Assembly: GCA_902803165.1 (NCBI GenBank)
Contig: CADCOS010000091.1
Location: 1 to 38,445 of the forward strand
Length of the DNA: 38,445 nt
From: an uncultured bacterium
GTDB taxonomy: Bacteria > Cyanobacteriota > Vampirovibrionia > Gastranaerophilales > Gastranaerophilaceae
Direction of reading: 5' to 3'
The position numbers and the translations under genes are program-made. The notes beneath the pieces are model-generated. The model did not search any database and had not been told where the DNA came from. It saw only the letters and a program-made list of their open reading frames with translations. Of the stretch, positions 5,106-24,129 are shown in pieces. Numbering within the stretch: position 1 is the first letter of the stretch; every line of letters begins with the position of its first letter.

Positions 5106-5152
5106 TAAAAGTAGTCAATTGGTAATACAGCCAAATGCTCGGGAGGAGACAA

Positions 5153-5767: not shown

Positions 5768-5777
5768 TAACTTGAAA

Positions 5778-5821
5778 ACCCTTGTCCTTCCGGGGATAGG
5801 ATGCTAAAGGCGGGCAAGGGT
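5778..5821 (+). other. Possible structured leader before flgN
   Basis: ACCCTTG at 5778-5784 pairs with CAAGGGT at 5815-5821, and an inner TCCT/AGGA hairpin (5785-5788 with 5798-5801) nests inside. There is no U-tract, so it is not a typical terminator. It could tune expression between the ring genes and the chaperone/junction genes. It does not match any riboswitch consensus I know. Confidence 0.3.
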
Positions 5822-5853
5822 GTGGTAATTGAAATTAATAAAAAAGGATTTTT

Positions 5854-6351
5854 ATGGACGAAATTCTATTTAGAAAACTTGTAACAGCAATAGATAAAGA
5901 AATCGCTGCTTATGAAAAATTAAAAGAACTTTTTGAAGAAAAAAAAGAACTTCTTAAAAGGGCAAAATCAGGAGACCTGAATGAACTTGATAACAGAATC
6001 ATTGCTCAAAATAATGCAATTGTTAAGCTGAACAAATCAAGGCAAAAACTTTCTGTTGAAACAACAGGTAAAAACTGTACTATGACAGAGTTTATAGAAC
6101 TTTTGGAGGATACTGATACCGAACAAAAAGAAGAACTTTTGTTAAGAAAAGTAAAGATTTGTAAAATTTCTGATGAATTAGTGTTACTAAATAATCAAAA
6201 TGTGGAATTATTAAAACATGGCATTATAATTACCAACAAGATGTTGGAAACAATTGTAGATGCGTTCGCTCCACAAGGAAGTAATTATAACGGAGCAGGC
6301 AAAACGGATTCACACGACTTAGACATGTGGACTGTAAACGAAGAAATATAA
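5854..6351 (+). CDS. flgN: FlgN-family export chaperone
   Basis: This 165-aa protein is almost entirely helical, with long heptad-like stretches (EKLKELFEEKKELLKRAKSGDLNELD, then a second helix around residues 95-135 ending in NNQNVELLKHGI). That is the FlgN layout: an antiparallel coiled coil with the conserved L..LL.hs motif near the C-terminus. FlgN binds FlgK and FlgL and delivers them to the export gate. Those two genes follow directly. The call rests on length, coiled-coil pattern and position more than on residue identity. AAGGA is present upstream of the ATG. Confidence 0.75.
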   Translation: MDEILFRKLVTAIDKEIAAYEKLKELFEEKKELLKRAKSGDLNELDNRIIAQNNAIVKLNKSRQKLSVETTGKNCTMTEFIELLEDTDTEQKEELLLRKVKICKISDELVLLNNQNVELLKHGIIITNKMLETIVDAFAPQGSNYNGAGKTDSHDLDMWTVNEEI

Positions 6352-6423
6352 AGCGGCTCAGCGTTGCAGAAGCTTGGCAGCTTGGGATAAAACCCGAAGA
6401 ATGAAATGAAACAGAGGTAAACA

Positions 6424-8097
6424 ATGGTTAGCTTATTTTCATCACTAAACATAGCATCAAATGCACTTTCGGTAAACGAATCAGCAATCAGCGTTGTATC
6501 ACATAACGTTGCTAATATGAATACCGAAGGTTACTCAAAGCAGAGAGTAAACCTTGCTACAAGAAATATTGCAGGCACTATCGGCGATAATGTAAATGCG
6601 CAGGTTCGTTCAAACGGCGGTGTAATGATTGCTAACGTTATGAGATATAATAACGACTACCTTAACAATTATTATCGTACTCAGGTTTCGGAATTAAACA
6701 AATACCAAGCTCAACTTGACGGACTGGGCGATCTTGCAGATGTATTTAATGACTTGGATGGTGAAGGTATTGACGGTGCTTTAGGTAAATTTTATGATTC
6801 ATTAAATAATTTACAGGAATATCCTGCAAGTTCAACAGCAAGAATTAACTTTATTGAAACAGCTAAGTCTCTGGCTGCTGTATTAAATTCAAAAAGTGTT
6901 CAGCTTGATCAGCTTAATTCTAAGGCTTTAGGAGATGGCGAATCAACGGATGCACTTGAAAAATCTGAAATTTTTACAAAAATAGGTGCATTTAATGATA
7001 AACTTGAAGAGCTTGCAGAAGTCAACAAAGCTCTCCAAGTAACACAAACAGGTACATTGACCGCAAACAACTTACTTGATAAGAGAGATTTAATTCTTAA
7101 TGATATCGCTGAATATATTGATATACAAGTTAAAGAAAATCCTAACGGTTCTGTAACTTTATATTCAGGTGATGACGCACTTGTTAAAGGTTCTGTTGTA
7201 ACAGGCAAATTGAGTATTGAACCGACCAAGACATATTGCTTGAACAACGGACTTACATACACTCCGGAATACTGGATTGATGCGGCAGGAAATAGGAGAA
7301 CGGAAAAAGCTGTAGTAAGTATAGTAAATTCAAGCGGTAATGTAGTAAAAGGTGATACAAACGGTGATATTACAGGCGGTTCACTCGGCGGACTTCTTCA
7401 TTCGGGAGATTTAAACGCTGACGGTATGAATCCCGGTAAAGCTCAAGCTGCTTTAAATTTAATTGCATCAGAAGTAGCAGATATGTTTAATACACTCAAC
7501 AAAAGGGAAAACGCATTTTATATAAATCCTAACGATACATCAAAATTGTATTACGAAACGGATGCATCAGGAAATATCACTAATGGCGGAAACAATGCGG
7601 ATATTTTCACAACACAAACAGGTACAGGAACAATAACTGCAGGTAATATCTCAGTAAACCCTGATTTACTTACAGATGACGGATGTTGGAAAATTGCATG
7701 CGCATACTTCCGTGACAGTGAAAATTTTGACGAAAATGCAATCGGTAATGCTCAAAACGTAGGTAACTCTTTTATTGATCCGAGCGGTAATCCTATCGGT
7801 TCATTCTTGGGTACAAGAAGCGAAAAAAGAGCTAACTTAAACGGACAATCTTTGGAAGATTATTACACAGGACTTGTCGGTAAAATTGCGGCAGGCGGAA
7901 GCAATGCTCAAAACATGGTAGATACTCAACAAGGGATTGTTGATTCTCTATATAACCAAATTAAATCGAATAACAGCGTAGATTTAAATGAAGAACTTGT
8001 TGATTTGGTTAAATACCAAACAGCTTATGCAGCTTCAGCTCAAGTATTTAATGTGGTTAATAATTGTTTGGATACTTTAATGACACTAGGAAGGTAA
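6424..8097 (+). CDS. flgK: Hook-filament junction protein FlgK (HAP1)
   Basis: The 557-aa protein begins with the axial N-terminal motif SLNIASNALSVNESAISVVS and HNVANMNTEGYSKQRV, and ends with the matching C-terminal coiled coil SVDLNEELVDLVKYQTAYAASAQVF and DTLMTLGR. FlgK forms the first of the two junction zones between hook and filament. The mid-region (about 190-500) is a variable domain, normal for the family. AGAGG lies upstream of the ATG. The stop is 8 nt before the flgL start. Confidence 0.95.
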   Translation: MVSLFSSLNIASNALSVNESAISVVSHNVANMNTEGYSKQRVNLATRNIAGTIGDNVNAQVRSNGGVMIANVMRYNNDYLNNYYRTQVSELNKYQAQLDGLGDLADVFNDLDGEGIDGALGKFYDSLNNLQEYPASSTARINFIETAKSLAAVLNSKSVQLDQLNSKALGDGESTDALEKSEIFTKIGAFNDKLEELAEVNKALQVTQTGTLTANNLLDKRDLILNDIAEYIDIQVKENPNGSVTLYSGDDALVKGSVVTGKLSIEPTKTYCLNNGLTYTPEYWIDAAGNRRTEKAVVSIVNSSGNVVKGDTNGDITGGSLGGLLHSGDLNADGMNPGKAQAALNLIASEVADMFNTLNKRENAFYINPNDTSKLYYETDASGNITNGGNNADIFTTQTGTGTITAGNISVNPDLLTDDGCWKIACAYFRDSENFDENAIGNAQNVGNSFIDPSGNPIGSFLGTRSEKRANLNGQSLEDYYTGLVGKIAAGGSNAQNMVDTQQGIVDSLYNQIKSNNSVDLNEELVDLVKYQTAYAASAQVFNVVNNCLDTLMTLGR

Positions 8098-8105
8098 TTA
8101 AAATT

Positions 8106-9164
8106 ATGGTTCAAAGAATTTCAACAGCAACAAGATATGCCCAATTGGTAGCAGATATGCAAATGAATCAGTTTAACTATAACAAGTTAACTGCTCAATT
8201 ATCTTCTGGTAAAAAACTTACAAGCATTTCTGATGATCCTATTGCTTCTGTAAATGTGTTAAATACAAACAGACAGTTAGGAAGAATTGAAACATATCAG
8301 GAAAATGTCGGTCTTGCAACTTCCGAATTATCTGCATTAGACGATTATATGGAACTTGCGAGAGGATATTTGCAAACTGCTTGGGATAAAGCTGTTCAAG
8401 CGAACAATCTTACATACAACGGAGATTCATTAAAAGCCATTAAAACGGAAATTGATGAAATTACTAAAACTATGGTTGATTTGGCAAATTCTGAATACGA
8501 TGACAACTATATTTTTGCAGGTGCTAATACAAAATTAGTTCCTTATGAATTGGGAGAAGACGGTTATATTACATATCACGGAACAAAGATGGATAATCCT
8601 GATTACATACGTCAAACAGAAGTTGCAGACGGAGTATTTGAAGTTATAAACACAACAGGTGACAGAGTTTTCGGATATTTTACACAAGAAGAAGTCTCTC
8701 GTGATTCCAACGGAGAGATTGTTACATTGAATCCTGATGACAATAAATATTATTATGAAGACGGAACAGAATGTACCGATACCAATATAACAACTCAAAT
8801 GGAAGACAAAGCCGTAGGTGTTATGGGTGCTTTAAGACAACTCAGCAACGGTCTTGAAAAAATGATAAACGGAAATACCTCCGAAGGTTATGACGAAATC
8901 CATGCTACATTGGACATGTTTGCGGATGCTCATACAAATATTCTTAATCAGCAAACAAAATTCGGCGGTGTATATAACAGAATGGAGATGACAACTTCCA
9001 CACTTGAGACAACAGGTGATAATTTGACATCTTATCTTACGGATTTGAATTCAATTGATTATCCTTCCGCAATTACTCAATGGTTGAATGCTCAATATGC
9101 ATATCAAGCAAGCTTGCAAGTAGCAGCTTCTTCAATGAATATGAGTCTTTTGAATTATCTGTAA
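8106..9164 (+). CDS. flgL: Hook-filament junction protein FlgL (HAP3)
   Basis: FlgL is recognised by a flagellin-like N-terminus (MVQRISTATRYAQLVADM, then LSSGKKLTSISDDP at about residues 34-47) and a flagellin-like C-terminus (QWLNAQYAYQASLQVAASSMNMSLLNYL in parts). It forms the second junction zone, onto which filament is built. The frame is open further upstream to 8064, inside flgK, but ATG 8106 gives the family-standard N-terminus and has AGGAAGGT at 8089-8096 upstream, so I chose it; the product is 352 aa. It is the last gene of the flagellar operon. Confidence 0.93.
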   Translation: MVQRISTATRYAQLVADMQMNQFNYNKLTAQLSSGKKLTSISDDPIASVNVLNTNRQLGRIETYQENVGLATSELSALDDYMELARGYLQTAWDKAVQANNLTYNGDSLKAIKTEIDEITKTMVDLANSEYDDNYIFAGANTKLVPYELGEDGYITYHGTKMDNPDYIRQTEVADGVFEVINTTGDRVFGYFTQEEVSRDSNGEIVTLNPDDNKYYYEDGTECTDTNITTQMEDKAVGVMGALRQLSNGLEKMINGNTSEGYDEIHATLDMFADAHTNILNQQTKFGGVYNRMEMTTSTLETTGDNLTSYLTDLNSIDYPSAITQWLNAQYAYQASLQVAASSMNMSLLNYL

Positions 9165-9184
9165 ATTTAAAAATATATAACTAA

Positions 9185-9211
9185 GAGGGTTTTCAAGGAC
9201 AGAAAACCCTC
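9185..9211. repeat. Hairpin after flgL
   Basis: A perfect 10-bp stem (GAGGGTTTTC with its complement) and a 7-nt loop lie shortly after the flgL stop. No U-tract follows, so it may be an RNA-stabilising hairpin or a processing site rather than the terminator itself. Confidence 0.55.
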
Positions 9212-9254
9212 CAAAACAAAAATAGTCTACAATTTTTATATACTTACCATTTTA

Positions 9255-9281
9255 AGGACAGGGAATCTGTTCTTTTTTTTT
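9255..9281 (+). terminator. Intrinsic terminator of the flagellar operon
   Basis: AGGACAG at 9255-9261 pairs with CTGTTCT at 9267-9273 (one G-U pair) and is followed at once by a run of T. It ends plus-strand transcription just before the convergent gene whose stop lies at 9280. Confidence 0.75.
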
Positions 9282-9906
9282 ATTTTATATTCGGGAACAC
9301 ATAAATTGTTCCGTCACTGTCACGCCATTTCAGCCAGCCGGTTTTAGGAGTTTTATCCAAGTCCATAGCCGAAACCAGCGCCCAATTGCCGCTTATTTTC
9401 GTCAATTTAATCTTCTGCACATGATTAAGCTTGGATAGTGATTGCGACAAGTCTTCGTTTTTAGCGTGTAAAGTATAAGTATTTTCAGGTGCATCTTTTA
9501 AAATACGAATTCCGTATTTTCTGCCGTACATATTATAGAAATTCATCCATGGCAAAAATTGCATCCTGTCAGCTGTTTGTGTCCATCCTTTTAAATTATT
9601 TTTTCTGTCATACAGGATTTCAACCCAGCCGTCCTCATCAATATCAGTTACATAAAGAAATCCGAGTTGTTTTTCATTTATCAAAAGTGCAAAACTTCCT
9701 TCAGGCATTGTCTCTTTTTTATATGAAAATTCTATTGTCTTTATAATTTCAGAATTTTTATCAGCGGCTTCATAAAGTGTCAACTCCTTGTCTGTTTGGT
9801 AAACTCCCATTGCGTTATTCGGAACGGATTCCACGTAATAAGGTGCTGTATCCGCATAAACTGCCGGTATAATTAACATAGACAATATTATTAAAATCTT
9901 TTTCAT
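9280..9906 (-). CDS. Secreted SH3-like hypothetical protein
   Basis: The 208-aa product starts with a clear signal peptide (MKKILIILSMLIIPAVYADT) and appears to be periplasmic or extracellular. The mature part looks like two SH3b-type beta barrels: the first from about residue 34 to 112, containing VYQTDKELTLYEAADKNSEI and ending with GWTQ, and the second from about 130 to 205, containing WALVSAMDLDKTPKTGWLKW. Paired tryptophans after glycine (GWT, GWL) are typical of SH3b repeats that bind wall material. I do not recognise a named family. GAGGGGAAAG precedes the ATG. It is convergent with flgL and is transcribed alone. Confidence 0.72.
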   Translation of the reverse strand: MKKILIILSMLIIPAVYADTAPYYVESVPNNAMGVYQTDKELTLYEAADKNSEIIKTIEFSYKKETMPEGSFALLINEKQLGFLYVTDIDEDGWVEILYDRKNNLKGWTQTADRMQFLPWMNFYNMYGRKYGIRILKDAPENTYTLHAKNEDLSQSLSKLNHVQKIKLTKISGNWALVSAMDLDKTPKTGWLKWRDSDGTIYVFPNIK

Positions 9907-10005
9907 TTAACTTTCCCCTCAATAAGAACATTTTACATTTCATATAACGAAAAGACAATATTTTTTGTTCAAATAAATTGAAAAGAATCAAAAAATATGC
10001 AATAA

Positions 10006-10011
10006 TATAAT
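10006..10011 (+). promoter_or_regulatory. -10 box for the structured RNA
   Basis: TATAAT at 10006-10011 would start transcription near 10018-10023, exactly where the closing stem of the RNA begins. No good -35 box is present at the right spacing. Confidence 0.45.
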
Positions 10012-10022
10012 TACTTTATATA

Positions 10023-10190
10023 GGTGTTTATTTTGTTCCTACATTTTTAATTAAAAGGGAGAGTAAGCTCTATAGTTTTTGAAGTATACCCGCCGATAAC
10101 AAATCGCCAGCGGGAAACGGATACTCTGAGGCACTCACCCACCTGCTGAGTAGGCAGGTAACAAAATCGCACTTATATAAAGTTTTTTAT
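10023..10190 (+). ncRNA. Structured non-coding RNA, possibly 6S RNA
   Basis: The 355-bp gap between 9906 and 10262 holds an RNA-like fold. A closing stem pairs 10030-10037 (ATTTTGTT) with 10160-10167, extended by GTG/CAC outside and CCTAC/GTAGG (10038-10042 with 10150-10154) inside. Next comes an AT-rich open stretch (10043-10056) opposite 10128-10149. Above it AGAGTA (10060-10065) pairs with TACTCT (10122-10127). The apical hairpin is CCCGC plus CGAT (10089-10097) with ATCG and GCGGG (10103-10114). A competing small hairpin is ACCTGC/GCAGGT (10141-10146 with 10154-10159). A T6 run at 10183-10188 could end the transcript. A rod with a large asymmetric central bubble and a hairpin on its 3' side is the architecture of 6S RNA. 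No open frame fits. The name is an inference; that a structured RNA is made is better supported. Confidence 0.5.
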
Positions 10191-10191
10191 T

Positions 10192-10206
10192 TAAGATTTA
10201 ATCTTA
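10192..10206. promoter_or_regulatory. Palindrome before the mutase gene
   Basis: TAAGATT at 10192-10198 and AATCTTA at 10200-10206 form a 15-nt palindrome directly upstream of a TTTACA element at 10211-10216. It could be an operator for the mutase gene or the last hairpin of the RNA transcript. Confidence 0.3.
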
Positions 10207-10261
10207 TAAATTTACATGATAAAATTATTTTATAAATTGAATTAGAGAAGAGGCAGCATTG

Positions 10262-11647
10262 ATGATTAAATTCGGTACTGACGGCTGGAGAGCTATTTTA
10301 GGAGAAGAATTCCATGATTTTAATGTCGAAAAAGTTACTCTTGCTATGGGAAAATATGTCTATGATAATTTTGGATACGATAAACAAATAATTATAGGCT
10401 ATGATCCTCGTAACAAAGCGGATTATTATGCTAAATTATGTGCCGAAATACTTGCTAAAAAAGGGTTTATAGTTGCACTGTCTTCTCATGTTGTGCCGAC
10501 ACCTGTTCTTGCATTTAATGCCAAGTTCAGAAACGCCTGCGCTATCATGTTTACGGCATCACACAACCCGCCTGAATATCTTGGCATGAAATTTATTCCC
10601 GATTATGCAGGACCTGCGACGTCTGATATTACAGACGAAATTACAGAAAATCTCGGGAAAGATTTTCCGTCTGCTGATAAATCGCAAAAAGTAAATACTG
10701 CCGAATTTGGTACGGCATACTTTGCAAAAATTAAAAAGCTCATTGATTTTAAAAAGATAAAAACCTTAAAATCAAAAATTATTTTTGACGGTTTATATTC
10801 CGCTTCAATAGGATATTTTGACAAACTTTTGGACTCTAACGGAATTAAATACAGTTCAATCCACATGGAGCATGATATAAATTTCGGCGGACTCATGCCG
10901 GATCCAAAACCTAAATACTTGAAAGAATTAGTAAGTAAGGTTTGCTCAGAACAAAATACAATAGGCTTGGCAAACGATGGTGATGCTGACAGGTTCGGAG
11001 TTATTGATGAAAACGGATATTATGTTGCACCGGATGTGGTTATAGCAATTTTATTAAAATATCTTATTAAAAAAGGATACAAAGGAAGTCTTGTTACAAC
11101 GGTAGGTTCAAGCATTTTGCTTGATGAAACAGCCAAAAAGCTGAATGTGCCTGTTATCGAAACGCCTGTAGGGTTCAAGTATATTGGCGAAGCAATGCGA
11201 AATAACGAAGTTATAATCGGCGGCGAAGAGTCAGGAGGTTTAAGTATACAAGGACATATTCCGGAAAAAGACGGAATACTGGCGAATTTGCTTTTGCTTG
11301 AGGCAGTGGCGGACAGCGGCAGAAGTTTGTATGAATTGGTTCAAGATACATACGCTTTTGTGGGAAGCAAATTCTATGCAGACAGACACGATTTCCAAAA
11401 ATCGGATTCGGAAACAATTAATAAAGTATTGGAAATATTTAATGCCATAAAAATAATAGGGCAATATGAAGTTACTAATATTGACAAAAAAGACGGGGCT
11501 AAAATTATGCTCGGTAATAAAGCTAAAATTCTCGTTCGTCCGAGCGGAACAGAACCTTTGTTAAGAGTTTATTTTGAAGCTGACAACAAAGAAAAACTTG
11601 CAGAAATTGAAACCGTCACGGATGAATTAATTAACAGCATACATTAA
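10262..11647 (+). CDS. Phosphohexomutase (phosphoglucomutase/phosphomannomutase family)
   Basis: This 461-aa alpha-D-phosphohexomutase interconverts hexose 1- and 6-phosphates for sugar-nucleotide and polysaccharide synthesis. All four signatures are present in order: FGTDGWRA at the N-terminus, the phosphoserine loop TASHNP with catalytic Ser100, the metal-binding DGDADR at 239-244, the sugar-binding GGEESGG at 320-326, and the phosphate-binding RPSGTEP at 426-432. It resembles the group annotated as phosphoglucomutase/phosphomannomutase in cyanobacteria rather than GlmM, whose sugar loop is GGEQSGH. I leave the exact sugar open. The ATG at 10262 has AGAGG at 10249-10253; a TTG directly before it is a less likely start. 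Confidence 0.92.
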   Translation: MIKFGTDGWRAILGEEFHDFNVEKVTLAMGKYVYDNFGYDKQIIIGYDPRNKADYYAKLCAEILAKKGFIVALSSHVVPTPVLAFNAKFRNACAIMFTASHNPPEYLGMKFIPDYAGPATSDITDEITENLGKDFPSADKSQKVNTAEFGTAYFAKIKKLIDFKKIKTLKSKIIFDGLYSASIGYFDKLLDSNGIKYSSIHMEHDINFGGLMPDPKPKYLKELVSKVCSEQNTIGLANDGDADRFGVIDENGYYVAPDVVIAILLKYLIKKGYKGSLVTTVGSSILLDETAKKLNVPVIETPVGFKYIGEAMRNNEVIIGGEESGGLSIQGHIPEKDGILANLLLLEAVADSGRSLYELVQDTYAFVGSKFYADRHDFQKSDSETINKVLEIFNAIKIIGQYEVTNIDKKDGAKIMLGNKAKILVRPSGTEPLLRVYFEADNKEKLAEIETVTDELINSIH

Positions 11648-11741: not shown

Positions 11742-12089
11742 ATGCCAAATAGTGATGCAATACCTGTTGAGGTAATAATATTAACTGAAACGAGCGATAT
11801 AAAAGGTACAGTATATGTATCTAAAGGCGTTGCCGCAAATCGTCAGCTGACAGAGCTTTTGAACGATTCAAACAGAAGATTCCTTGCGGTAACCAATGTA
11901 GAGATTTATCCTAAAAATTCTAACCAGCCTCCTAAGAGATATGAATTTTTAGAATTGCACATGGATTCTATTTTAATGGTTCATCCTATAACTCAAGCTT
12001 TGTTTAAAGATTCGCCTAAATCTCAAGAAGAAGATATTGCAAGATTTAGAGAATTACGAGCTAAATTAAATCAAACCAAGCCGTTTTAG
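11742..12089 (+). CDS. Small conserved protein with an RLSDLLN-like motif
   Basis: The 115-aa cytoplasmic protein has a beta-rich core: VEVIILTETSDIKGTVYVSK (residues 9-28), then NRQLTELLNDSNRRFLAVTNVEIY (33-56), then a strand FLELHMDSILMVHPI. The layout of a GxV strand, an R-L-x-x-L-L-N turn and an F-L-x-V-T-x-V strand looks like the DUF6812-type small domain seen in assorted bacteria, whose function is unknown. The assignment is from memory of the pattern and is tentative. It has its own leader, with GAGGGG upstream of the ATG and an AT-rich promoter region near 11687-11715, and a strong terminator after it. No enzyme motif is visible. Confidence 0.7.
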   Translation: MPNSDAIPVEVIILTETSDIKGTVYVSKGVAANRQLTELLNDSNRRFLAVTNVEIYPKNSNQPPKRYEFLELHMDSILMVHPITQALFKDSPKSQEEDIARFRELRAKLNQTKPF

Positions 12090-12107: not shown

Positions 12108-12146
12108 AAAAGCGGCGATTTTGACTCTGTCAAAATCGCCGCTTTT
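12108..12146. terminator. Bidirectional intrinsic terminator
   Basis: An 18-bp perfect stem (AAAAGCGGCGATTTTGAC at 12108-12125 with its complement at 12129-12146) and a 3-nt loop lie between convergent genes. A-runs and T-runs flank it on both sides, so it can stop transcription from either strand. Confidence 0.92.
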
Positions 12147-12150
12147 GTAT

Positions 12151-13107
12151 CTATTTAAGCGTAATTGAAAAATTGCCGTTATTAAAACTTATTGAAATTC
12201 TGAATGTTTCGCCTTTATACAAAGCAGGCGGAGGATTGTATGTCGGAGTCGACATTACTGCCTTATAAACCGCATCATTTAATGTCATATTAGTTGATTT
12301 TTGTTCAAATGTCCTGTTGACGAGTTTACCGCTTGAATTGAGCGAAAAAGCAACCACACAGCTCCCGTCTCCTATAACTTTTGTAAAATCTACTTTCCTT
12401 CCGATTTCATTTCTCAGATTAATTTTATATGTTGCATATTCTTGTTTATCCTGCTGCGCTTGAAGTAATTTTTGAGCCTGTTCAGCTATTTTTGCCTGTT
12501 TTTCCGCTTCTGAAGAAACAGTTTCCGTAACGGGTTGATAAATCGGCTTTTTCACTTCTTGTTTTTGTACTTGTTTTGGAGCGGTTTTCTGAACCGGTTT
12601 TGCGGTTTGTTTTTTAATAACAGGTTTTGTTTGCGTTGTTTTTTTAACTACAGGCGCCGGTTTACTCTGTGTTTTAACTACAGCCGGCATGACAGGTTGT
12701 TTCGGTTCTTCTTTTTTTACTTCCGGCTGTTGAATTTGAGATTCTTTCCATAATTTATTAATTGACGGTATTTCAACATTTACCGTTTCTTTTTTAATCG
12801 GTGCTTTTACTTCTTTTTCCGCAGGTTTCCAGGCAAAAATAATTAAAAATGATAATATCAAACAGAGAATAAATATTGTCATAGATATCGGTTCAATATT
12901 TATCCGCGCTTTTGGTGATATTTCATTATAAATTTGTGACTGTACAATATTCGGCTCTTCTTTTTGTTCGGGAACAGTATTAACTGCTTCTTTAACAGGG
13001 TTTTCCGGCTTTTTATCCTCGATTGTTAAGACAAACTCATCGTTCCCGCAATCACAATATTCGGGTTTTTTATCATATTCTAAACCGCATTCAGTACATT
13101 TATACAT
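12151..13107 (-). CDS. Zinc-ribbon, TM and TonB/TolA-like C-terminal protein
   Basis: The 318-aa protein has four parts. Residues 1-25 form a short zinc ribbon (C4, C7, C18, C20). Residues 75-93 are a TM helix. Residues 94-222 are a long K/P/Q/V-rich linker with repeated KPV and KQ units, like the TonB periplasmic spacer, ending in an A/Q-rich helix as in TolA. Residues 223-318 resemble the TonB/TolA C-terminal domain (INLRNEIGRKV, VVAFSLNSSGKLVN, AVMSTPTYNPPP). A cytoplasmic metal-binding head on a TonB-like protein is unusual. It is the last gene of a six-gene set, but it also seems to have its own promoter (13114-13142), with the ATG at the expected transcription start and no Shine-Dalgarno. 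The architecture is clear, the function unknown. Confidence 0.72.
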   Translation of the reverse strand: MYKCTECGLEYDKKPEYCDCGNDEFVLTIEDKKPENPVKEAVNTVPEQKEEPNIVQSQIYNEISPKARINIEPISMTIFILCLILSFLIIFAWKPAEKEVKAPIKKETVNVEIPSINKLWKESQIQQPEVKKEEPKQPVMPAVVKTQSKPAPVVKKTTQTKPVIKKQTAKPVQKTAPKQVQKQEVKKPIYQPVTETVSSEAEKQAKIAEQAQKLLQAQQDKQEYATYKINLRNEIGRKVDFTKVIGDGSCVVAFSLNSSGKLVNRTFEQKSTNMTLNDAVYKAVMSTPTYNPPPALYKGETFRISISFNNGNFSITLK

Positions 13108-13109
13108 AA

Positions 13110-13130
13110 TTCATTTATATTATAAATGAA
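13110..13130. promoter_or_regulatory. Palindrome overlapping the promoter of the zinc-ribbon gene
   Basis: TTCATTTATA at 13110-13119 and its exact complement at 13121-13130 form a 21-nt palindrome that covers the -10 box and ends 2 nt before the ATG. It could be an operator, or a hairpin at the end of the upstream gene's transcript. Confidence 0.5.
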
Positions 13131-13142
13131 CAGTATTATCAA
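13114..13142 (-). promoter_or_regulatory. Internal promoter, probably giving a leaderless mRNA
   Basis: On the minus strand TTGATA (13142 to 13137) is followed after 17 nt by TATAAA (13119 to 13114). The ATG of the downstream gene begins 7 nt after the -10 box, at the expected start of transcription. Confidence 0.55.
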
Positions 13143-13144
13143 CA

Positions 13145-13951
13145 TTATTTCGATATTTTTTCAATATCATTATAATCTTGAGGAGTGCTGTATCTTTCGC
13201 TCGCAGAAATTTTCCACCCGCCTTTTACTTCTGTAGAAGTTCTTGATGAGCCTGTTGGGAAGTTTAGGATATCTTTGCCTTGATAACTCCTGATTACAGG
13301 AGCTATATATTGAACTGCGTACGGTGTGTATGAAGACGGAGTTGCATAAGTTTGAACATTTGAAACTCGCCCAAATTTATCTACATTAAATGAAAATCTA
13401 AAAACAGTACCTTCCGGAATTGAAGGTAAGAAAACTTCTTTCATAATCTTGTTTTGCAAATTTGAACGCCAGATATTCCAAGCAATTTCTTCTTCTTGTT
13501 GAGTTAATATTTTTTTTACCGGCTCTGTTTTTACCACCGTTTTAACAGGAGTTGTAACCGTTTTTACCGGCTCAACAATTTTTTGCGGAATTTGTTGAAT
13601 TTTTGTTTCTGTTGATTTAACGGGTGTTTGTTTTTGAGTATTAGTCACCGCCGTTTTTGTCTCTGTTTTCTTAACAGGGGTTTGCTTTTTAACCGTACTT
13701 ACAATCTTACGCTCATTTTTTTTCTGTACAGGCTCAACTTTTTTTTCTGTTTTTACCGTCACGGTTTTAGGCACAGCCGGAATTTCCATTATGGGAATGT
13801 CTTCTGTTTCCGTTTCTACAGTATTTTCAGGTGCAATTACGTAATCGGAATTATATACAATCACGGATTTATGCATTTCGGGTTTTAAAGAGCATATTAA
13901 AACCGTTGAAACAACTGCAACAATTAGTATTATTTGTAAAAACAGTCTCAC
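13145..13951 (-). CDS. TonB/TolA-like envelope protein
   Basis: The 268-aa product has an N-terminal TM or uncleaved signal (1-20), a linker of about 140 residues rich in K, T, V and P (many PVKT and KKTETK units) and a C-terminal domain (about 175-250) with WRSNLQNKIMKEV, FRFSFNVDKFGRVSNV and a YTPYAVQYIAPVIRSYQ helix. This matches the TonB/TolA C-terminal pattern and resembles the same part of the next gene's product. TonB-like proteins carry proton-motive energy from inner membrane to outer-membrane partners. Right after the TM it has ICSLKPEMHK (residues 19-28), a motif shared with the first protein of this gene set. The GTG start lies 4 nt after the stop of the upstream gene. Confidence 0.65.
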   Translation of the reverse strand: MRLFLQIILIVAVVSTVLICSLKPEMHKSVIVYNSDYVIAPENTVETETEDIPIMEIPAVPKTVTVKTEKKVEPVQKKNERKIVSTVKKQTPVKKTETKTAVTNTQKQTPVKSTETKIQQIPQKIVEPVKTVTTPVKTVVKTEPVKKILTQQEEEIAWNIWRSNLQNKIMKEVFLPSIPEGTVFRFSFNVDKFGRVSNVQTYATPSSYTPYAVQYIAPVIRSYQGKDILNFPTGSSRTSTEVKGGWKISASERYSTPQDYNDIEKISK

Positions 13952-13955
13952 TTAA

Positions 13956-15548
13956 TTATCCTATCTTTGATATCAACTCATCACATGCGAAGTTTTCAAA
14001 TCTTGTTTGAGAAAGCATAAATGTTTCCGCAATCAAAAGCGCTGTAGGAACAAGTGCAGCAAGAAGGCTTAATAACAAACCGCCCAAATCGCCGCCTATT
14101 TCACCCATAAAGTATGATGAATTCATTGAAAATTCAATGACTATAATTGATAAACCTATTACAAATGAACGGCGCATGTCTTTTTGCAATTTTCTTATTC
14201 CTTCAAGTCCGTATATTTCTACACCATGCTGCAGATAATTGCTGTAACCGTCATTTTTAATAACTTCTGACGCTTGAATTTTTTTGCTGCATAAAAATCC
14301 GCTTACAAATGAGAAAAAAGCGAAGATTATCAAAAATGTTGCCAAAACCAAAAATACAGGACTGAGTCTTAAACCTGAAATTCTTACCCATCCTGCTGCT
14401 TCAGGAAAACACATTGCAAGAGTGTTTGAAACACCATAAGCTAAGAAAGGAGCGGTTAAAATACCCAAGAAAATTTCTCCCGCAGATTTTATTTGTAAAT
14501 TAAACTGCCTGTCTTTTATGTTTTGGATTTTTGTTTTACTCATTGTATTTACTAATCTTTCAATCCATTGTCTGTATTCTTTTAGAACACATTCCAAATC
14601 TTCTCTGTATTCAAGCAGCGAAAGCTCATAAGAAAGTTCTGAATTACTGTTTTTAAAATAACCGCAGCCTATAGCAAGTGTAGCGGCCGTTCCGACAAAA
14701 AACAGAGAAATTAAAACGGCGAATACAGGAAATGTTTTCGGAGCTACATAATAAAGAACATTAATCAAATATATAGCGCAATAAAACATCAATGAAACAC
14801 CGAGCATAAAACTGCCGGCTATACCTGATGATACAGTTCCTTCACCATTCTTATTTCTTAAATACAAGAATATGCCTTGTTTTAAAATCAAACCGATTCC
14901 GTAAATAATCAAAGTGTACACAAATATAAGTTTCATATTAGAAGGCATTTGAATAACATTACCGGCTTCACTTAAAGGTAAACCCGTAAGATAATTCGAA
15001 ACGCCGAACGCACATATCAGAGAAGCAAAGAATAACGCTATATGCAAAACAATTCCGCCCTTTGAATTCATTGATAATTGTTTGCGCAAAGATGTTATAG
15101 CCGCACCGATTTCTTTTATTATTGAAACTCTTGTAGATTCTATTTCGGCCTTTCTTTTCTCAACCATAATTTTTGCAGCTGCATTTACGTCATTTCCGTA
15201 TATTGCTTTAATATCATTTTCAGTAATATTTTCTTGAGCTAATTCACGATTAACGATATCACCGATTATTTTTATTGATATAAATTCATCCGAATTTGCA
15301 ATCATAATTTTGCAAACTTTTTCGACATCCAATTTTGCAGGTAAAGCTCTTCCTTTGAAAAGAAAGTGTTTATCGTTAAATTGGTTCAAAACTGAACAGC
15401 TGTTGGTTTTTGGGTTATATTGAACCGTTAAAAGAAATTCAAATCCCAAATCCATTTTCACATCAGAATTTATATTAGAACCTATATTGACAAGTTCTTT
15501 ATCAGCAAATGTTTTTTCTCCGTGTTTTGTTGTTATTGTAAATGCCAT
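13956..15548 (-). CDS. FHA-like domain plus eight-TM membrane protein
   Basis: This 530-aa protein does not belong to a family I recognise. Residues 1-98 are beta-rich and resemble a degenerate FHA fold (VNIGSNINSDVKMDL, later strands ending FISIKII), but the phosphothreonine-binding Arg and Ser/His are not evident. A charged helical segment follows (105-160). I count eight TM helices at about 165-185, 205-230, 243-268, 272-297, 357-380, 396-420, 461-482 and 488-513, with a cytoplasmic helical hairpin at 303-355. The last stretch (GGLLLSLLAALVPTALLIAE, then FENFACDEL) vaguely recalls the final TM of MotA/TolQ/ExbB proteins; that is only a suggestion. AAGGAG precedes the ATG. It sits between the VWA gene and the TonB-like genes, so it may be the membrane core of the assembly. 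Confidence 0.6.
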   Translation of the reverse strand: MAFTITTKHGEKTFADKELVNIGSNINSDVKMDLGFEFLLTVQYNPKTNSCSVLNQFNDKHFLFKGRALPAKLDVEKVCKIMIANSDEFISIKIIGDIVNRELAQENITENDIKAIYGNDVNAAAKIMVEKRKAEIESTRVSIIKEIGAAITSLRKQLSMNSKGGIVLHIALFFASLICAFGVSNYLTGLPLSEAGNVIQMPSNMKLIFVYTLIIYGIGLILKQGIFLYLRNKNGEGTVSSGIAGSFMLGVSLMFYCAIYLINVLYYVAPKTFPVFAVLISLFFVGTAATLAIGCGYFKNSNSELSYELSLLEYREDLECVLKEYRQWIERLVNTMSKTKIQNIKDRQFNLQIKSAGEIFLGILTAPFLAYGVSNTLAMCFPEAAGWVRISGLRLSPVFLVLATFLIIFAFFSFVSGFLCSKKIQASEVIKNDGYSNYLQHGVEIYGLEGIRKLQKDMRRSFVIGLSIIVIEFSMNSSYFMGEIGGDLGGLLLSLLAALVPTALLIAETFMLSQTRFENFACDELISKIG

Positions 15549-15588
15549 AATTATCTCCTTTTTTGATAATCGAGTAATCTTTTGTTAT

Positions 15589-16257
15589 TTATCTTCCAAT
15601 TGCTTCTAAAAATCGTCTGCCTGCTTTATCAACATTAGCCTCATTTGCGACAATAAGTTTCTTTTCTCCTAAAATCGGATTTAGTTTTGTTTTTACCAAA
15701 TCCAATTTATCAGGTTTAGCGTAAACGAACATCATAGCGAGTTCCGGTATATAATTTTGAACATTTTTTATATTTTCGGGAAGTGTATTCCAATCAATTT
15801 GCTTTGAAATATTACCTTCGTTTTCCAAGTCACCGATAACAACGATTGACGGAATAAAGCCTTCTTTTTTCATTGTCAAGCAATGGTCAAGAGCTTTTTT
15901 GATAGCCTCACCGTAAGCTGTTCCGTAGTCTTTTGAATCATATTTTGTAAATGCTTCAACAGCTTTTGTAATGCCTTTGGAATCACTTGGCGCACCTTCA
16001 TAAATCAAGTAAGAATCTTGAGAAACTTTTAAAATTTTTATATGGTCTTCAGGATCTAAAATAGAACAAAGTGATTTTGTAAATTTAATTTCATCAGGCA
16101 GCATATCTTGATTTGAAGCGGATGAATCCATTACAAACACAACGGCAGCTTTATGAAAATCATCAACCTTTATGTTCTTTGCAGCCATAAACAACAATTT
16201 GCCTATTAATGATACAGCCAAAATAAGTAATCCTAATGTCACCAATCTTTTATTCAT
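15589..16257 (-). CDS. Membrane-anchored VWA-domain protein
   Basis: The 222-aa protein has one N-terminal TM helix (residues 5-26) and a von Willebrand factor A domain on the outside. The metal-ion-dependent adhesion site is complete: D44-x-S46-x-S48 in VMDSSAS, T113 in YGTAYGEAI, and D143 in VVIGDLEN. VWA domains bind protein partners through Mg2+ or Mn2+ and often act in assembly or adhesion complexes. It lies 10 nt after the upstream gene and 40 nt before the next, all in one direction. GAGGG lies before the ATG. I see no link to the MoxR/BatA type, which lacks this context here. Confidence 0.82.
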   Translation of the reverse strand: MNKRLVTLGLLILAVSLIGKLLFMAAKNIKVDDFHKAAVVFVMDSSASNQDMLPDEIKFTKSLCSILDPEDHIKILKVSQDSYLIYEGAPSDSKGITKAVEAFTKYDSKDYGTAYGEAIKKALDHCLTMKKEGFIPSIVVIGDLENEGNISKQIDWNTLPENIKNVQNYIPELAMMFVYAKPDKLDLVKTKLNPILGEKKLIVANEANVDKAGRRFLEAIGR

Positions 16258-16267
16258 AATTTCCCTC

Positions 16268-17296
16268 TTATTGTCCTACACTTACACTCAATCCGCTTGT
16301 CAGAGTCAATTCCATCTCAGTAAACGAAGGTATTTCCGCATCAACCCCTCGTTCTACGGCAGAAGTTGCGACTCCTGTACCGGCACCGACGCCTGCACCT
16401 ATTGCAACTGATCTGCCGACATTTCCGTCTGTTACCAATGCTAATAACAAACCGACAACGGCTCCGGCAGCAGCTTTTACTGCTACATTTTTAACTGATT
16501 CTGCGACTTTACCGTCATTTGAAACAGTAAAATCTATTGTCTCCGCTGATATATTGTATACTTGGTTTTCAGGTGTAACTATTTTGTCAAAATTTATTAC
16601 GACTCTTCCGTTTCTTGAACCGTATGATGCATGTCTTGCAACAGTAAGAGTTCCGTATACCAAACTGCCTTGAGGTATTACTACACTGCCGTTATATAGT
16701 ACATTATCAGATATAACAGCCGTTATATTGTCACCTTTCGTAGCAGTTGCCGTATTTATAGATGATTGAAGATATACGGGAATGGTTGTACCGGCTGAAA
16801 GCTGAGCTATATAACCTGTTAATGCCTGAGATTTTTTGTACTTAGGTTCTTCTACAGGCTTGAAAAACGTTTCTTCAGGTTCATCAAAAGAATATGTTTT
16901 TTCCTTACCGGAATTGGCGGTGAGAGATTCCGCAAGCCCGTCATATATACTTATAATACTTTTATTAAAAGATTGTTCGCAAACAATGTTTTGTCTTTTA
17001 ACTTCTTTTAAAATCATTTTATTAATTTTTGTATTTTTATCGGCTTCATAATAATAAAACATATTATCACCGCTTTGCTGCAAAATTATTATGGCGTGAT
17101 TATTACCGTCGGAAGACACGGCATAATAAGGATTTGACTTAACAATTTCATAATTTTGAGATTCTAAACTCATATTAACAAGCGGTTCTATTGCAGCCGT
17201 TTTTATATTCTTAAAATAATACAGCTCGCTAAAAGCATAGCAGCTGTTAGTTGAGAGAAAGAATAGCAGTACTAATGAGGCAAATAGTTTTTTCAT
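16268..17296 (-). CDS. Secreted protein with VirB10-like beta domain and glycine zipper
   Basis: The 342-aa product has a signal peptide (1-21, ending CYA). Residues 25-120 are an unrecognised mixed domain. Residues 166-256 form a beta domain (LSAGTTIPVYLQSSI, DNITAVISDNV, VVIPQGSLVYGTL, GRVVINFDKIVTP) that recalls the C-terminal domain of VirB10/TrbI, an outer-membrane-spanning secretion component. It is interrupted by a glycine-zipper membrane hairpin at about 275-312 (GAVVGLLLALV, GAGVGAGTGVA) and closed by a final strand (EMELTLTSGLSV). The same beta-domain pattern recurs in the SLH protein at 18919. The ATG overlaps the stop of the preceding small gene by one base. VirB10 kinship is my inference; the domain layout is visible. 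Confidence 0.65.
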   Translation of the reverse strand: MKKLFASLVLLFFLSTNSCYAFSELYYFKNIKTAAIEPLVNMSLESQNYEIVKSNPYYAVSSDGNNHAIIILQQSGDNMFYYYEADKNTKINKMILKEVKRQNIVCEQSFNKSIISIYDGLAESLTANSGKEKTYSFDEPEETFFKPVEEPKYKKSQALTGYIAQLSAGTTIPVYLQSSINTATATKGDNITAVISDNVLYNGSVVIPQGSLVYGTLTVARHASYGSRNGRVVINFDKIVTPENQVYNISAETIDFTVSNDGKVAESVKNVAVKAAAGAVVGLLLALVTDGNVGRSVAIGAGVGAGTGVATSAVERGVDAEIPSFTEMELTLTSGLSVSVGQ

Positions 17297-17574
17297 TAAT
17301 TTTTCCCTCCGTTTTCGCCGTTTTGTTTGATAACTGTTTGCGTAACTTGTTTTGTTGTTGTAACAGAGCCGTCTTTATTAATTTTAAACAAGTATTCAAT
17401 TGTGCTTAATGAGAAAGGTTTGTGCATATCAGGCTGAACGGCGCATATCCATAAAGTAAAAACAATTGCAGCGGTTAAAACAGAAATTCCGACAATTTTT
17501 AAGCTTAAAGAAACTATACTTTTTAAAATTATGAATGTAATAAGAATTAATATTACCGCTATTCCTAATGTCAT
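17296..17574 (-). CDS. Small membrane protein, first gene of the envelope set
   Basis: The 92-aa product has two hydrophobic helices (about 3-20 and 26-45), followed by a short polar tail with SVTTTKQVTQTVIKQNGENGGK. Just after the second helix it carries ICAVQPDMHK (residues 43-52), nearly the same as ICSLKPEMHK in the TonB-like protein of the same gene set. That suggests a shared binding surface at the membrane or a duplication. GGAAGG precedes the ATG. It is translationally coupled to the next gene (TAATG overlap). No database family is recognised. Confidence 0.6.
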   Translation of the reverse strand: MTLGIAVILILITFIILKSIVSLSLKIVGISVLTAAIVFTLWICAVQPDMHKPFSLSTIEYLFKINKDGSVTTTKQVTQTVIKQNGENGGKN

Positions 17575-17601: not shown

Positions 17602-17607
17602 ATTATA
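17602..17607 (-). promoter_or_regulatory. -10 box for the six-gene envelope operon
   Basis: TATAAT on the minus strand lies 27 nt before the ATG of the first gene, downstream of acpS, in a very AT-rich 64-nt gap. The -35 region is not clear, so readthrough from acpS is an alternative. Confidence 0.4.
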
Positions 17608-17638
17608 CAATTAAATTTAATAATTTAAAATATTATTA

Positions 17639-17989
17639 TTATTCAACTATAACAAATGCCGCAGCTTTATCTTTTTCATGAGAAAGAGAAACAGAAAATT
17701 TATATTTTTTTAAATCTTCTATATATATATTTATAAACGGCGCTCCTTTATTATTGTTCAAAATTTCTATTTTGTTGTAAGATACCGTTTTGTCATATAA
17801 TTCGGAAACAGCTTTTACTACGGCCTCTTTTGCGCAATATCTTGCGGCAAGGTGCGGAGCCGGATTTTTATAACCGAAACAATATTCCAGTTCTTTTTGA
17901 GTAAAAATTCTATTCAAAAAAGCCGCGTCTTTCTCAGGCGTCTTATCGCTGAATCTTGAAATATCCTCTATATCAACTCCGATTCTCAT
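17639..17989 (-). CDS. acpS: Holo-[acyl-carrier-protein] synthase
   Basis: The 116-aa protein is a standard-length AcpS. It moves 4'-phosphopantetheine from CoA to a serine of acyl carrier protein, starting fatty acid synthesis. Signatures are the N-terminal GVDIEDISRF with the metal-binding Asp, FTQKELEYC at about 30-38, HLAARYCAKEAVVKA (46-60) with the catalytic Glu, and the C-terminal SLSHEKDKAAAFVIVE. The ATG has no Shine-Dalgarno nearby, but TGGTAATAT ends 6 nt before it (17996-18004), an extended -10 arrangement that would make the mRNA leaderless. It is divergent from the gene at 18068. Confidence 0.95.
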   Translation of the reverse strand: MRIGVDIEDISRFSDKTPEKDAAFLNRIFTQKELEYCFGYKNPAPHLAARYCAKEAVVKAVSELYDKTVSYNKIEILNNNKGAPFINIYIEDLKKYKFSVSLSHEKDKAAAFVIVE

Positions 17990-18918: not shown

Positions 18919-20055
18919 ATGTTCAAGAAAATATTAAAAGGAATGCTTACACTTGCATTGTTTGCAGTTATCGGCAATCCGGCACACGCTTTTTATTCTG
19001 ATATGACAGAAAGCCATTGGGCATATCAGCCTGTTAAATTTTTAACAGATGTTGGTATTGTTGTAGGTTTTCCTGACGGAACATACAAACCTGATATCCC
19101 TGTAACAAGAGCAGAATTTGCTTCTATGGCAATAAAAGCATTGGGACAAGAATACGCAAATGTTAGTCAAGCTATTCATTTTGAAGATATAAATTCTGAT
19201 TTTTGGGCATACGGAATTATACAAAAAGCTGTTTATTTCGGTTTAATTCCTGATGCTAAAGGCGAAAGCTTCCGCCCGTTTGATCCTGTAACAAGAATGG
19301 ATGCAATTAATATTATAGTTAATGCTCTTTCTACAAGCCAAATTGGTCAAAAAGAAGCAGAAGAAATTGTTTCAAAGAATTACAAAGATGCGAATCAGCT
19401 TCCTGCGGCATTCGTCGTAACTGCAGCTAAGGCTCACAGTTTAGACTTGGTTGTTACAATGCCTGGACATGAAAATATGATGGAAGCTATGAGACCTGCT
19501 AATCGTGCAGAAGTAGCTGCTTTATTATACAAAATGATGTTAGCCGCAAAACAAAGCCCTAACGATAAACTTGCTCCTGCTATGGAAAAAAGATACGGCG
19601 AAGGCTATATTGTTGATAACGTAAAAGTTCAAGGTTCAATAGGTATTATACCTGCCGGTACAATCTTCCCTATCAGACTTGAGTCTGTTGTAGGTTCTGC
19701 AATTTCGTCCGTTGCAGATATTTATACAGCAAAAACTCCTAAAAACTATGTAACCAAAGAAGGTTATTTGTTAATAGAAGAAAACAGTGATTTGAAGGGC
19801 GCTGTAAAATACGTTCAAAGAGGCAGCGCATTTAAACAGCAAGGTGAAATTATTCTTAGAAATGAACTTTTAGTAACTCCAAACGACCAAGCTGTTATGG
19901 TATATGGTGTAGCAACTCTTGATCCTCAAAAAATAGGTTTCTGGAGAAGCGTATTCAAAGGTAAAAACGTTCTTGCTAAACCGGGGCAAATTGTTAATTT
20001 GAGACTTTTAGCTCCTATAAAAATCGATTTAACAAACGGTTTTATCTACGAATAA
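18919..20055 (+). CDS. Secreted SLH-domain protein with C-terminal beta domain
   Basis: The 378-aa protein has a signal peptide (1-24, ending PAHA) and three SLH repeats: 25-76 (HWAYQPVKFLTDVGIVVGFPDG, PVTRAEFASM), 86-138 (FWAYGIIQKAVYFGLI, PVTRMDAINII) and a looser one at 155-208 (ANRAEVAALLYKMM). SLH repeats bind secondary wall polymers or, in cyanobacteria, tie outer-membrane proteins to peptidoglycan. No OprB-type porin barrel follows. Instead residues 243-375 form a beta domain (IPAGTIFPIRLESVV, DIYTAKTPKNY, GEIILRNELL, PGQIVNLRLLAPIKI) patterned like that of the secreted protein at 16268-17296. AGGAGG lies before the ATG and a strong terminator follows, so it is monocistronic and possibly abundant. 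Confidence 0.85.
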   Translation: MFKKILKGMLTLALFAVIGNPAHAFYSDMTESHWAYQPVKFLTDVGIVVGFPDGTYKPDIPVTRAEFASMAIKALGQEYANVSQAIHFEDINSDFWAYGIIQKAVYFGLIPDAKGESFRPFDPVTRMDAINIIVNALSTSQIGQKEAEEIVSKNYKDANQLPAAFVVTAAKAHSLDLVVTMPGHENMMEAMRPANRAEVAALLYKMMLAAKQSPNDKLAPAMEKRYGEGYIVDNVKVQGSIGIIPAGTIFPIRLESVVGSAISSVADIYTAKTPKNYVTKEGYLLIEENSDLKGAVKYVQRGSAFKQQGEIILRNELLVTPNDQAVMVYGVATLDPQKIGFWRSVFKGKNVLAKPGQIVNLRLLAPIKIDLTNGFIYE

Positions 20056-22775: not shown

Positions 22776-23432
22776 TTATGTATTATAAATCCTGTCTCCG
22801 GCATCTCCCATGCCCGGAACAATATAACCTCTTTCATTCAAATGTGAATCAACCGCTGCGACAATGAGTGTTATATCAGGAAATTCTTCAAAAACAGCAT
22901 TTATTCCCTGAGGAGAAGAAATCATACAAACTCCGCAAATATTTTTCTGAGGGATTCCCTTTTGCACATATAATCTGATAGCTTCTTTTAAAGAATTACC
23001 TGTTGCAAGCATAGGATCTGTTATATAAACATAGTATTTTTCCGGATTATCAACGGGCATAGGAACTTTGTTGTAGTACCATACAGGTTTCAAGGTTTTT
23101 TCATCTCTGTACATTCCGATATGTCTGATAGTTGCCTGCGGTAATATATCGACTGCTTCGTCGGTAAATATTAAGCCGGCACGTAAAATAGGTGATATTA
23201 TTATTGTAATGTCGTGATTTATTGTTTTTGCTTTAAATGATGCAATTGGAGTTTCAACCTCTTCTTCGGTTTGCGGAAGATTTTTTGTCGCTTCATACAA
23301 AAGAATACGAGTTAGTTTTCTTGCTGCCAAACGCACTCCCTGAGTGTCCGTATGCTTGCTTCTTATTGTACATAAACTCTGATTAACTATTGGGTTTTCT
23401 ACTATTTTTAAATTAGCGTACGTTTTTTCCAT
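22776..23432 (-). CDS. upp: Uracil phosphoribosyltransferase
   Basis: The 218-aa enzyme salvages uracil by joining it to PRPP to form UMP. It has the PRPP loop YVYITDPMLATGNSL (about 136-150), the N-terminal HTDTQGVRLAARKLTRIL, the SPILRAGLIF block and the uracil-binding C-terminus PGMGDAGDRIYNT. Length and motifs are standard. The start has GAGGGAG upstream on the minus strand and overlaps the end of the mlaD-like gene by 20 nt, so the two are likely co-transcribed. Confidence 0.96.
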   Translation of the reverse strand: MEKTYANLKIVENPIVNQSLCTIRSKHTDTQGVRLAARKLTRILLYEATKNLPQTEEEVETPIASFKAKTINHDITIIISPILRAGLIFTDEAVDILPQATIRHIGMYRDEKTLKPVWYYNKVPMPVDNPEKYYVYITDPMLATGNSLKEAIRLYVQKGIPQKNICGVCMISSPQGINAVFEEFPDITLIVAAVDSHLNERGYIVPGMGDAGDRIYNT

Positions 23433-24087: not shown

Positions 24088-24096
24088 ATTGTACAT

Positions 24097-24102
24097 ATTA
24101 TA
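24097..24102 (-). promoter_or_regulatory. -10 box of the mlaD-upp unit
   Basis: TATAAT on the minus strand ends 9 nt before the ATG at 24087, which would give a leader of about 3 nt. No clear -35 box is present. Confidence 0.45.
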
Positions 24103-24129
24103 TAACAATTTGAACGTTATGTGTAGAAT

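Follow-up and report, generated by a model that had tools for sequence, protein, structure and literature searches.

A conserved gene cassette of Gastranaerophilales encoding TonB/TolA-type arms, a VWA protein and an FHA-fold multispanning membrane protein: a candidate trans-envelope transduction module

How might a bacterium couple its inner membrane to its outer envelope with TonB/TolA-type arms when the operon that encodes them contains neither an ExbB nor an ExbD gene? The question is raised by six genes on contig CADCOS010000091.1 from an uncultured member of the Gastranaerophilales, of which positions 1 to 38,445 were analyzed (hereafter the window). We letter the genes A to F in the order of transcription: A encodes a small membrane protein, B a secreted protein with a TrbI/VirB10-like beta domain, C an anchored VWA protein, D a protein with an FHA fold and eight predicted transmembrane (TM) segments, and E and F the two arms. 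An initial annotation of the window took these genes for a single envelope operon whose products could reach across the whole envelope and that matched no described system. The first point is supported by our analysis; on the second, we searched the literature and found neither a paper describing this gene set nor a known system that it fits. On balance, we lean toward reading the operon as a self-contained module for trans-envelope transduction that exists in parallel with TonB-ExbB-ExbD and was assembled partly from its duplicated parts.

The first step is to ask whether the six genes belong together at all. Of 97 family genomes, 64 have gene C; precisely these 64 also have full-length D, while E is present in 61 of these and in no other of the 97. 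Two of the three exceptions carry C-D-F loci (L075 in genome G179 and L140 in genome G475), and the third genome is 57% complete. The order of the genes is kept across genera, with flanking genes that differ almost everywhere. Given this strict co-occurrence and conserved order, the cassette is a real conserved system, far beyond chance. Searching with the D sequence returned 82 matches from 194 genomes of the class, and a profile of 28 D sequences returned 128 matches from 386 genomes of the phylum; all the matches listed belong to the family of the window's genome, and none among them comes from another family of the class or phylum. A check of conservation had been proposed across both the Gastranaerophilales and Vampirovibrio; in the genomes sampled, the former showed it and the Vampirovibrio side of the check yielded nothing. 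The neighborhood is conserved and its parts fall outside unrelated known pathways, the two points on which the initial annotation had staked its reading beforehand. Three further genomes hold only a 99-residue ORF homologous to the FHA-like domain of D and to nothing else in it; by eye, each of these stand-alone ORFs lies beside TolC-like and EmrAB-like efflux genes.

Within the window, the six open reading frames (ORFs) run on the minus strand throughout, from 17574 to 12151, and the gaps between them (−1, 10, 40, 4 and 37 nucleotides from A to F) are those first reported, to which we add the strand. Across cassette loci the median gaps are 2 to 13 nucleotides, with a slight overlap of A and B (median −2.5). 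Because this order and spacing are bracketed by a promoter-like site and a hairpin, the six genes look like one transcription unit. Promoter-like matches over the region occur at chance level. The terminator-like hairpin is placed directly after F and also directly after a convergent gene (11742-12089), and nine terminator-like sites were found over the region versus 3.8 expected.

The composition of the cassette varies. Among the neighborhoods read, the runs were ABCDEF (11), CDE (11), BDEF (7), BCDEF (4) and BCDE (3), with ABCDE, CDEF and CDF twice each and two others. Type 2 loci (B-D-E-F) are second copies in two genera and have no gene C; one to four divergent secreted VWA genes stand immediately beside their B, and the DxSxS motif is present in 11/11 of these. 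A VWA protein, whether membrane-tethered or exported, would thus be a standing partner of the module. Type 3 consists of C-D-E alone, and in type 4 a tight co-directional run with small gaps, TrkA-TrkH-C-D-F, recurs at five loci in two genera; in two other C-D-F loci a gene that by eye resembles an acyl-CoA ligase replaces trkA-trkH. One same-genus locus (L146) has D and E split by three membrane or secreted-looking genes, the sole such interruption noticed.

D copies fall into two or more separate clades within each of six genera (g5, g7, g11, g14, g4 and g20); on the strength of these clades the cassette is duplicated and has probably been transferred between genomes. Its presence is patchy even inside the genus of the window's genome, where the genes around 11742-12089 are so rearranged that no empty insertion site can be defined. 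Patchiness, paralogues and unrelated flanks are also what a mobile anti-phage or conflict module would display, but the cassette gave no PADLOC match and no nuclease or toxin-like domain is found in the six proteins, and we regard this alternative as very improbable. Collections of plasmids, phages and viral contigs yielded no homologues.

Where might the parts have come from? The genome of the window carries a second, informative operon on another contig (C12, locus L122, 1-4261), in the order X192, a B-like protein of 255 amino acids, a TonB of 402 amino acids, ExbB, ExbD and ExbD (Pfam: TonB_2 1e-13, ExbB 2e-28, ExbD 3e-24). The order B-like, TonB, ExbB recurs in 16/16 other genomes checked (L124-L139; 17/17 in total), whether the cassette is present or not, and ExbD genes come next in 15 of those 16; X192 is uncalled in a few. 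We refer to this as the universal operon. Protein B of the cassette, which has a signal peptide, an unclassified N-terminal domain, a beta domain at residues ~160-260 and a glycine zipper at ~270-313, is paralogous to the B-like protein that heads the universal operon (blastp 30% identity over 218 residues, E-value 3e-32; hhalign probability 100%, 5.9e-47). The B-like protein likewise has a glycine zipper and scores to TrbI (2e-7). The beta domain recurs in weaker form (blastp 9e-6) behind two SLH repeats in an SLH protein of the window itself, which suggests that B-type beta domains are used at the interface of wall and outer membrane.

These relationships bear on whether B marks what is left of, or an addition to, a secretion or conjugation system of type IV and VirB10/TrbI kind. 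The initial annotation called B VirB10-like and proposed a comparison with TrbI. The score does lie just below the cut-off (34.8 bits against 35, E-value 1.9e-8; 9/23 family members match, the best at 3.6e-10), but the label misleads: as a paralogue of the head of the TonB-ExbBD operon, B is not to be taken for a type IV secretion part. The signal peptide of B replaces the inner-membrane TM segment and proline arm of VirB10, and the same domain is used in several proteins of the window's genome outside type IV secretion, among them the ExbBD-operon protein and, weakly, the SLH protein. No other type IV secretion gene is in the cassette; VirB4-, VirB9- and VirB11-type genes were absent from the cassette proteins and from the flanks scanned with Pfam, a scan outside which most flanking genes lie. 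As D has no homologue among plasmids or phages either, a secretion remnant seems barely credible, and "VirB10-like" is, on this evidence, a name for a beta domain employed by the lineage in proteins of its envelope. Profile searches of the PDB with B and C gave spurious matches only.

The arms themselves were called TonB/TolA-type at the outset, and the call stands for both, for F by a TonB_2 match above cut-off (28.8 bits against 22) and for E by its fold. In the AlphaFold2 model of E, a TM helix (residues 2-22) is followed by the motif PxMHK, a disordered stretch (26-142) with a linker of ~110 residues rich in K, P and T, and a tip (~150-250) with the fold of TolA-III and of the TonB C-terminal domain (predicted local distance difference test [pLDDT] ~90; Foldseek). 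The VIA Z scores of this tip (7.2 to 1lr0, 6.4 to 5lw8; range 7.2-5.6) are weak taken alone, and the argument is the uniformity of the list, whose first 20 rows are all TolA or TonB; for parts without a model, the VIA and Foldseek lists leave other families possible. F starts with a zinc-ribbon-like CxxC...CxC segment, predicted to be cytoplasmic, in which C4, C7, C18 and C20 are invariant, and its tip is related to the lineage's universal TonB (hhalign to TonB402, 94.8%). Homology also links A to the N-terminal part of E (hhalign probability 97.9, E-value 4.6e-13; blastp 1.2e-4). In A, a hydrophobic, TM-forming N-terminus leads into P-x-M-H-K and then a conserved tail, EY..KiN.DGS, predicted to be periplasmic. 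Since B is paralogous to the B-like protein and the tip of F is kin to that TonB, B and F are most naturally read as descendants of the TonB operon or as having a common ancestry with it.

The transducers of ExbBD-TonB and TolQRA contact their motors through a His in the transducer helix. The universal TonBs hold this His, at the S-x3-H place, in 16/17 cases, whereas a His is found in the TM window of 3/42 E, 0/30 F and 1/16 A proteins. E and F are accordingly TonB-like in fold and layout, but by this residue they fail the test for ExbB-driven transducers. The universal TonB of the window's own genome has Q where the others hold the His (ISTALQP), with a His later in the helix. Compared with the 5:2 motors TonB-ExbB-ExbD and Tol-Pal, then, the cassette shares arms made of a TM segment, a K/P linker and a TonB/TolA tip, and a paralogue of the protein at the head of the operon; it differs in having no ExbB, ExbD, TolQ or TolR gene, in a D unrelated by profile, and in the missing motor-binding His.

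It follows that E and F are unlikely to be simply additional TonB/TolA proteins for which the universal ExbB-ExbD acts as the motor, with D and C merely organizing them. Such an arrangement would have motors at hand, as the ExbB/MotA family is present in 96/97 genomes, with or without the cassette, and the universal ExbB operon in all 17 loci checked; the kinship of the F tip with the universal TonB would fit it, and there is precedent for TonB paralogues that share one ExbB, such as HasB of Serratia (PMC9008036). Beyond the lack of the motor-contact His, however, it is D and not ExbBD that is inherited with C and E. The usual TonB client is scarce as well: TonB-dependent receptors occur in 11/97 family genomes and are absent from 86/97, the window's among them. 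The arms would therefore not serve that client, and, from gene order, we infer that B-like proteins are the obvious candidate clients of TonB-like arms in this family.

Protein C bears out its initial description as a membrane-anchored VWA protein with an intact metal-ion-dependent adhesion site (MIDAS). Pfam VWA/VWA_2 match at ~5e-5, and the MIDAS, intact as judged by its residues, comprises D44-x-S46-x-S48, T113 and D143, each conserved in 39/39 sequences except S46 (38/39, with one Thr). The domain is predicted to be TM-tethered, and we infer that it lies on the periplasmic side. Among published concepts, the closest is the proposal of vWA force transducers, which are encoded beside tolQ-like motors and use an SHLS-type His or an ExbD-like transpore Asp (PMC12204202, 2025); the phyla given there for the family do not include Cyanobacteriota (PMC12204202). 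Both cases have a VWA tethered to the membrane, a multi-TM protein of the inner membrane encoded with it, and a proposed trans-envelope role. C, however, lacks the SHLS/His helix as well as the Asp transpore helix (H, D or E falls in the TM window of 0/39 proteins), its tether is short, its neighbor in nearly all loci is D rather than a tolQ-like gene, and two TonB-type arms are added. Judged by these residues, C does not qualify as one of the published vWA transducers. The initial suggestion of an energized machine consequently found no footing in the arms, in A or in C: the TonB-type His is missing from the TM helices of all four proteins, and the helix of C has no ExbD-type Asp either.

Could D be the motor? 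It had been described as an FHA-like protein with eight TM segments. Both elements are recovered: residues 1-90 are modeled as an FHA fold (AlphaFold2 pLDDT 74-81; best Foldseek match 6ccd, E-value 1.4e-4, probability 1.00, with DgcB and YscD/PscD FHA folds also returned), and hydropathy gives eight hydrophobic segments beyond it. The phosphothreonine-binding Arg, however, is missing: position 24, assigned by eye from the motif (after IG), is S, T, N, G or A in 45/45 sequences, and for that reason we treat the domain as a putative docking fold and not a phospho-reader. Mean identity to the window copy over the 45 sequences is 82% in TM5-6 and 72% in TM7-8 versus 45% in the FHA part, and six residues of the membrane part (E472, N476, P501, T502, E508 and T509) are kept in 44-45/45. 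D matches no family above cut-off in Pfam or NCBIfam and none in PHROGs or the PDB. Weak matches to Tetraspanin-15 (E-value 0.1) and TssO (0.0023, four members) are scattered and unrelated, and an internal duplication of TM1-4 against TM5-8 (hhalign probability 13.5%) is not claimed. The proposed comparison with MotA/TolQ/ExbB profiles likewise revealed no similarity: PF01618 misses D, with both of its loci in the window's genome off the window contig, and hhalign against 17 ExbB sequences from this lineage gave a probability of 0.1. If the module is energized at all, D would be the candidate, a speculation prompted solely by its conserved membrane-embedded acidic residues. That D is a new, ExbB-unrelated energy-converting protein of the inner membrane, driving the TonB/TolA-type arms and the VWA protein across the envelope, strikes us as doubtful.

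FHA, TonB-type tips and VWA do occur in one known envelope complex, the Agl-Glt focal-adhesion complex of Myxococcus, in which GltG joins FHA, one TM segment and TonB_C in one chain (PMC3169522) and CglB is a VWA adhesin (Islam 2023, as cited in PMC12204202). The cassette might thus specify a surface adhesion or gliding device of similar working, since its parts overlap with that list: FHA in D, TonB tips in E and F, VWA in C or the secreted VWAs. Genomes with at least two MotA/ExbB-family genes, likely flagellated, make up 19/64 of those with the cassette and 21/33 of those without (p 0.002, or 0.049 when genera are compared, with no control for phylogeny), so the cassette is commoner where a second such gene is absent. 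Compared by parts list, however, the arrangement differs, with FHA and TonB tips on separate polypeptides, D combining FHA with eight TM segments and holding no TonB domain that we found, and C anchored in the inner membrane. The cassette, confined to the Gastranaerophilales, has alongside it neither an AglRQS-type motor gene (PF01618 finds none on the window contig) nor the TPR proteins GltD/E/I. A gliding device is decidedly unlikely, and on the tests made the cassette cannot be called a member of the Agl-Glt systems or of the vWA transducers.

The type 4 loci bear on a further alternative, in which C and the arms would sense strain or ligand at the wall or outer membrane and D would signal to partners in the cytoplasm through the FHA-like and zinc-ribbon domains, so that the module would monitor turgor or the state of the envelope and may gate K+ uptake in one variant. 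The Trk linkage is the best hint at a turgor or K+ role, and the cytoplasmic docking domains predicted on D and F and the absent motor signature would suit such a sensor. The linkage is confined to one divergent branch, however, flanks being unrelated at most loci, and the cassette carries no kinase, phosphatase or regulator gene. We consider a dedicated sensor unlikely as well.

The transduction module that we favor would work as follows. D would be the inner-membrane hub, consisting of a strongly conserved eight-TM core and, on the cytoplasmic side, a degenerate FHA domain for docking; A and E would plausibly dock on D through their common TM-PxMHK element. C would display its MIDAS-bearing VWA domain in the periplasm, and binding to a ligand or surface would fall to C or to the secreted VWAs. 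The arms would cross the periplasm so that their tips reach B, placed at the outer envelope, much as contact between the universal TonB and its own B-like partner is presumed. Transduction might run outward, as force powered by D, or inward, as sensing of the envelope or a ligand. Several points weigh against this proposal. B and F are missing from the C-D-E variants and E from the C-D-F variants, so not every arm, nor B, is obligatory. Of the structure predictions suggested at the outset, the FHA fold of D and the tip of E were modeled, but the TM part of D gave no usable model (AlphaFold2 pLDDT <50, 9 sequences), and D resembles no motor in profile or sequence searches. The complex and the location of its parts are, moreover, deduced from genes and predictions.

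Table 1. Positions of the cassette genes, flanking signals and related loci (window numbering unless a locus is named; aa, amino acids)
Feature	Position	ORF	Strand	Description
A	17296..17574	17574-17296	minus	92 aa, small inner-membrane protein
B	16268..17296	17296-16268	minus	342 aa, signal peptide + TrbI/VirB10-like beta domain + glycine zipper
C	15589..16257	16257-15589	minus	222 aa, N-terminal TM anchor + VWA domain
D	13956..15548	15548-13956	minus	530 aa, FHA fold (residues 1-100) + helical linker + 8 predicted TM
E	13145..13951	13951-13145	minus	268 aa, GTG start; TM + K/P/T linker + TolA-III/TonB C-terminal-domain tip
F	12151..13107	13107-12151	minus	318 aa; Cys ribbon, TM, K/P linker, TonB_2 tip
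Promoter-like TTTAAA-16-TATAAT	17602..17629		minus	between acpS and A; 10/12 matches
Terminator-like hairpin, bidirectional	12108..12146		both	perfect 18 pairs, A/T tracts on either side
acpS	17639-17989	17989-17639	minus	upstream of A
SLH protein	18919-20055			two SLH repeats, weaker copy of B beta domain
FlgK- and FlgL-like ORFs	6424-9164			flagellar hook-associated (by eye)
MlaD-domain gene, upp, ATPase gene	22776-24108 and 24168-25550			see text
B-like protein	L122:2869-3636			universal operon, window's genome
Universal TonB	L122:1566-2774			universal operon, window's genome
TrkA-TrkH-linked divergent C, D, F copies	L075:2825-10256; L076:1959-9362; L140:2996-9071; L144; L145			type 4 loci
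Stand-alone FHA-like ORFs	L077:7021-7320; L078:6539-6838; L079:6387-6686			99 aa each
Interrupted cassette	L146 (G398:C17) 4893-11499			D and E split by three genes

Other genes of the window are recorded here as observations in their own right. AcpS, upstream of A on the same strand, has a detectable relative in only 3/23 same-genus genomes, its own included, which is odd for a usually essential gene. Two ORFs resemble the flagellar hook-associated proteins FlgK and FlgL. An MlaD-domain gene overlaps upp (UPRTase) by 20 nucleotides and adjoins a gene for an MshEN-T2SSE ATPase of PilB/GspE type.

Few couplers from the inner membrane to the outer envelope are known, namely ExbBD-TonB, TolQRA and the vWA transducers proposed in 2025. 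To these, animal-gut Gastranaerophilales would add a module that combines TonB/TolA-type arms with a VWA protein, that has no ExbB or ExbD gene in its cassette, and whose putative hub matched no family in Pfam, NCBIfam, PHROGs or the PDB. The findings lead to the prediction that the TonB-like arms of this lineage act on partners with the VirB10 fold and glycine zippers and not on TonB-dependent receptors. If D were indeed energy-converting, it would represent a second, independently evolved way of powering trans-envelope work; the cassette may be an undescribed route by which these bacteria pass force or signals through their envelope.

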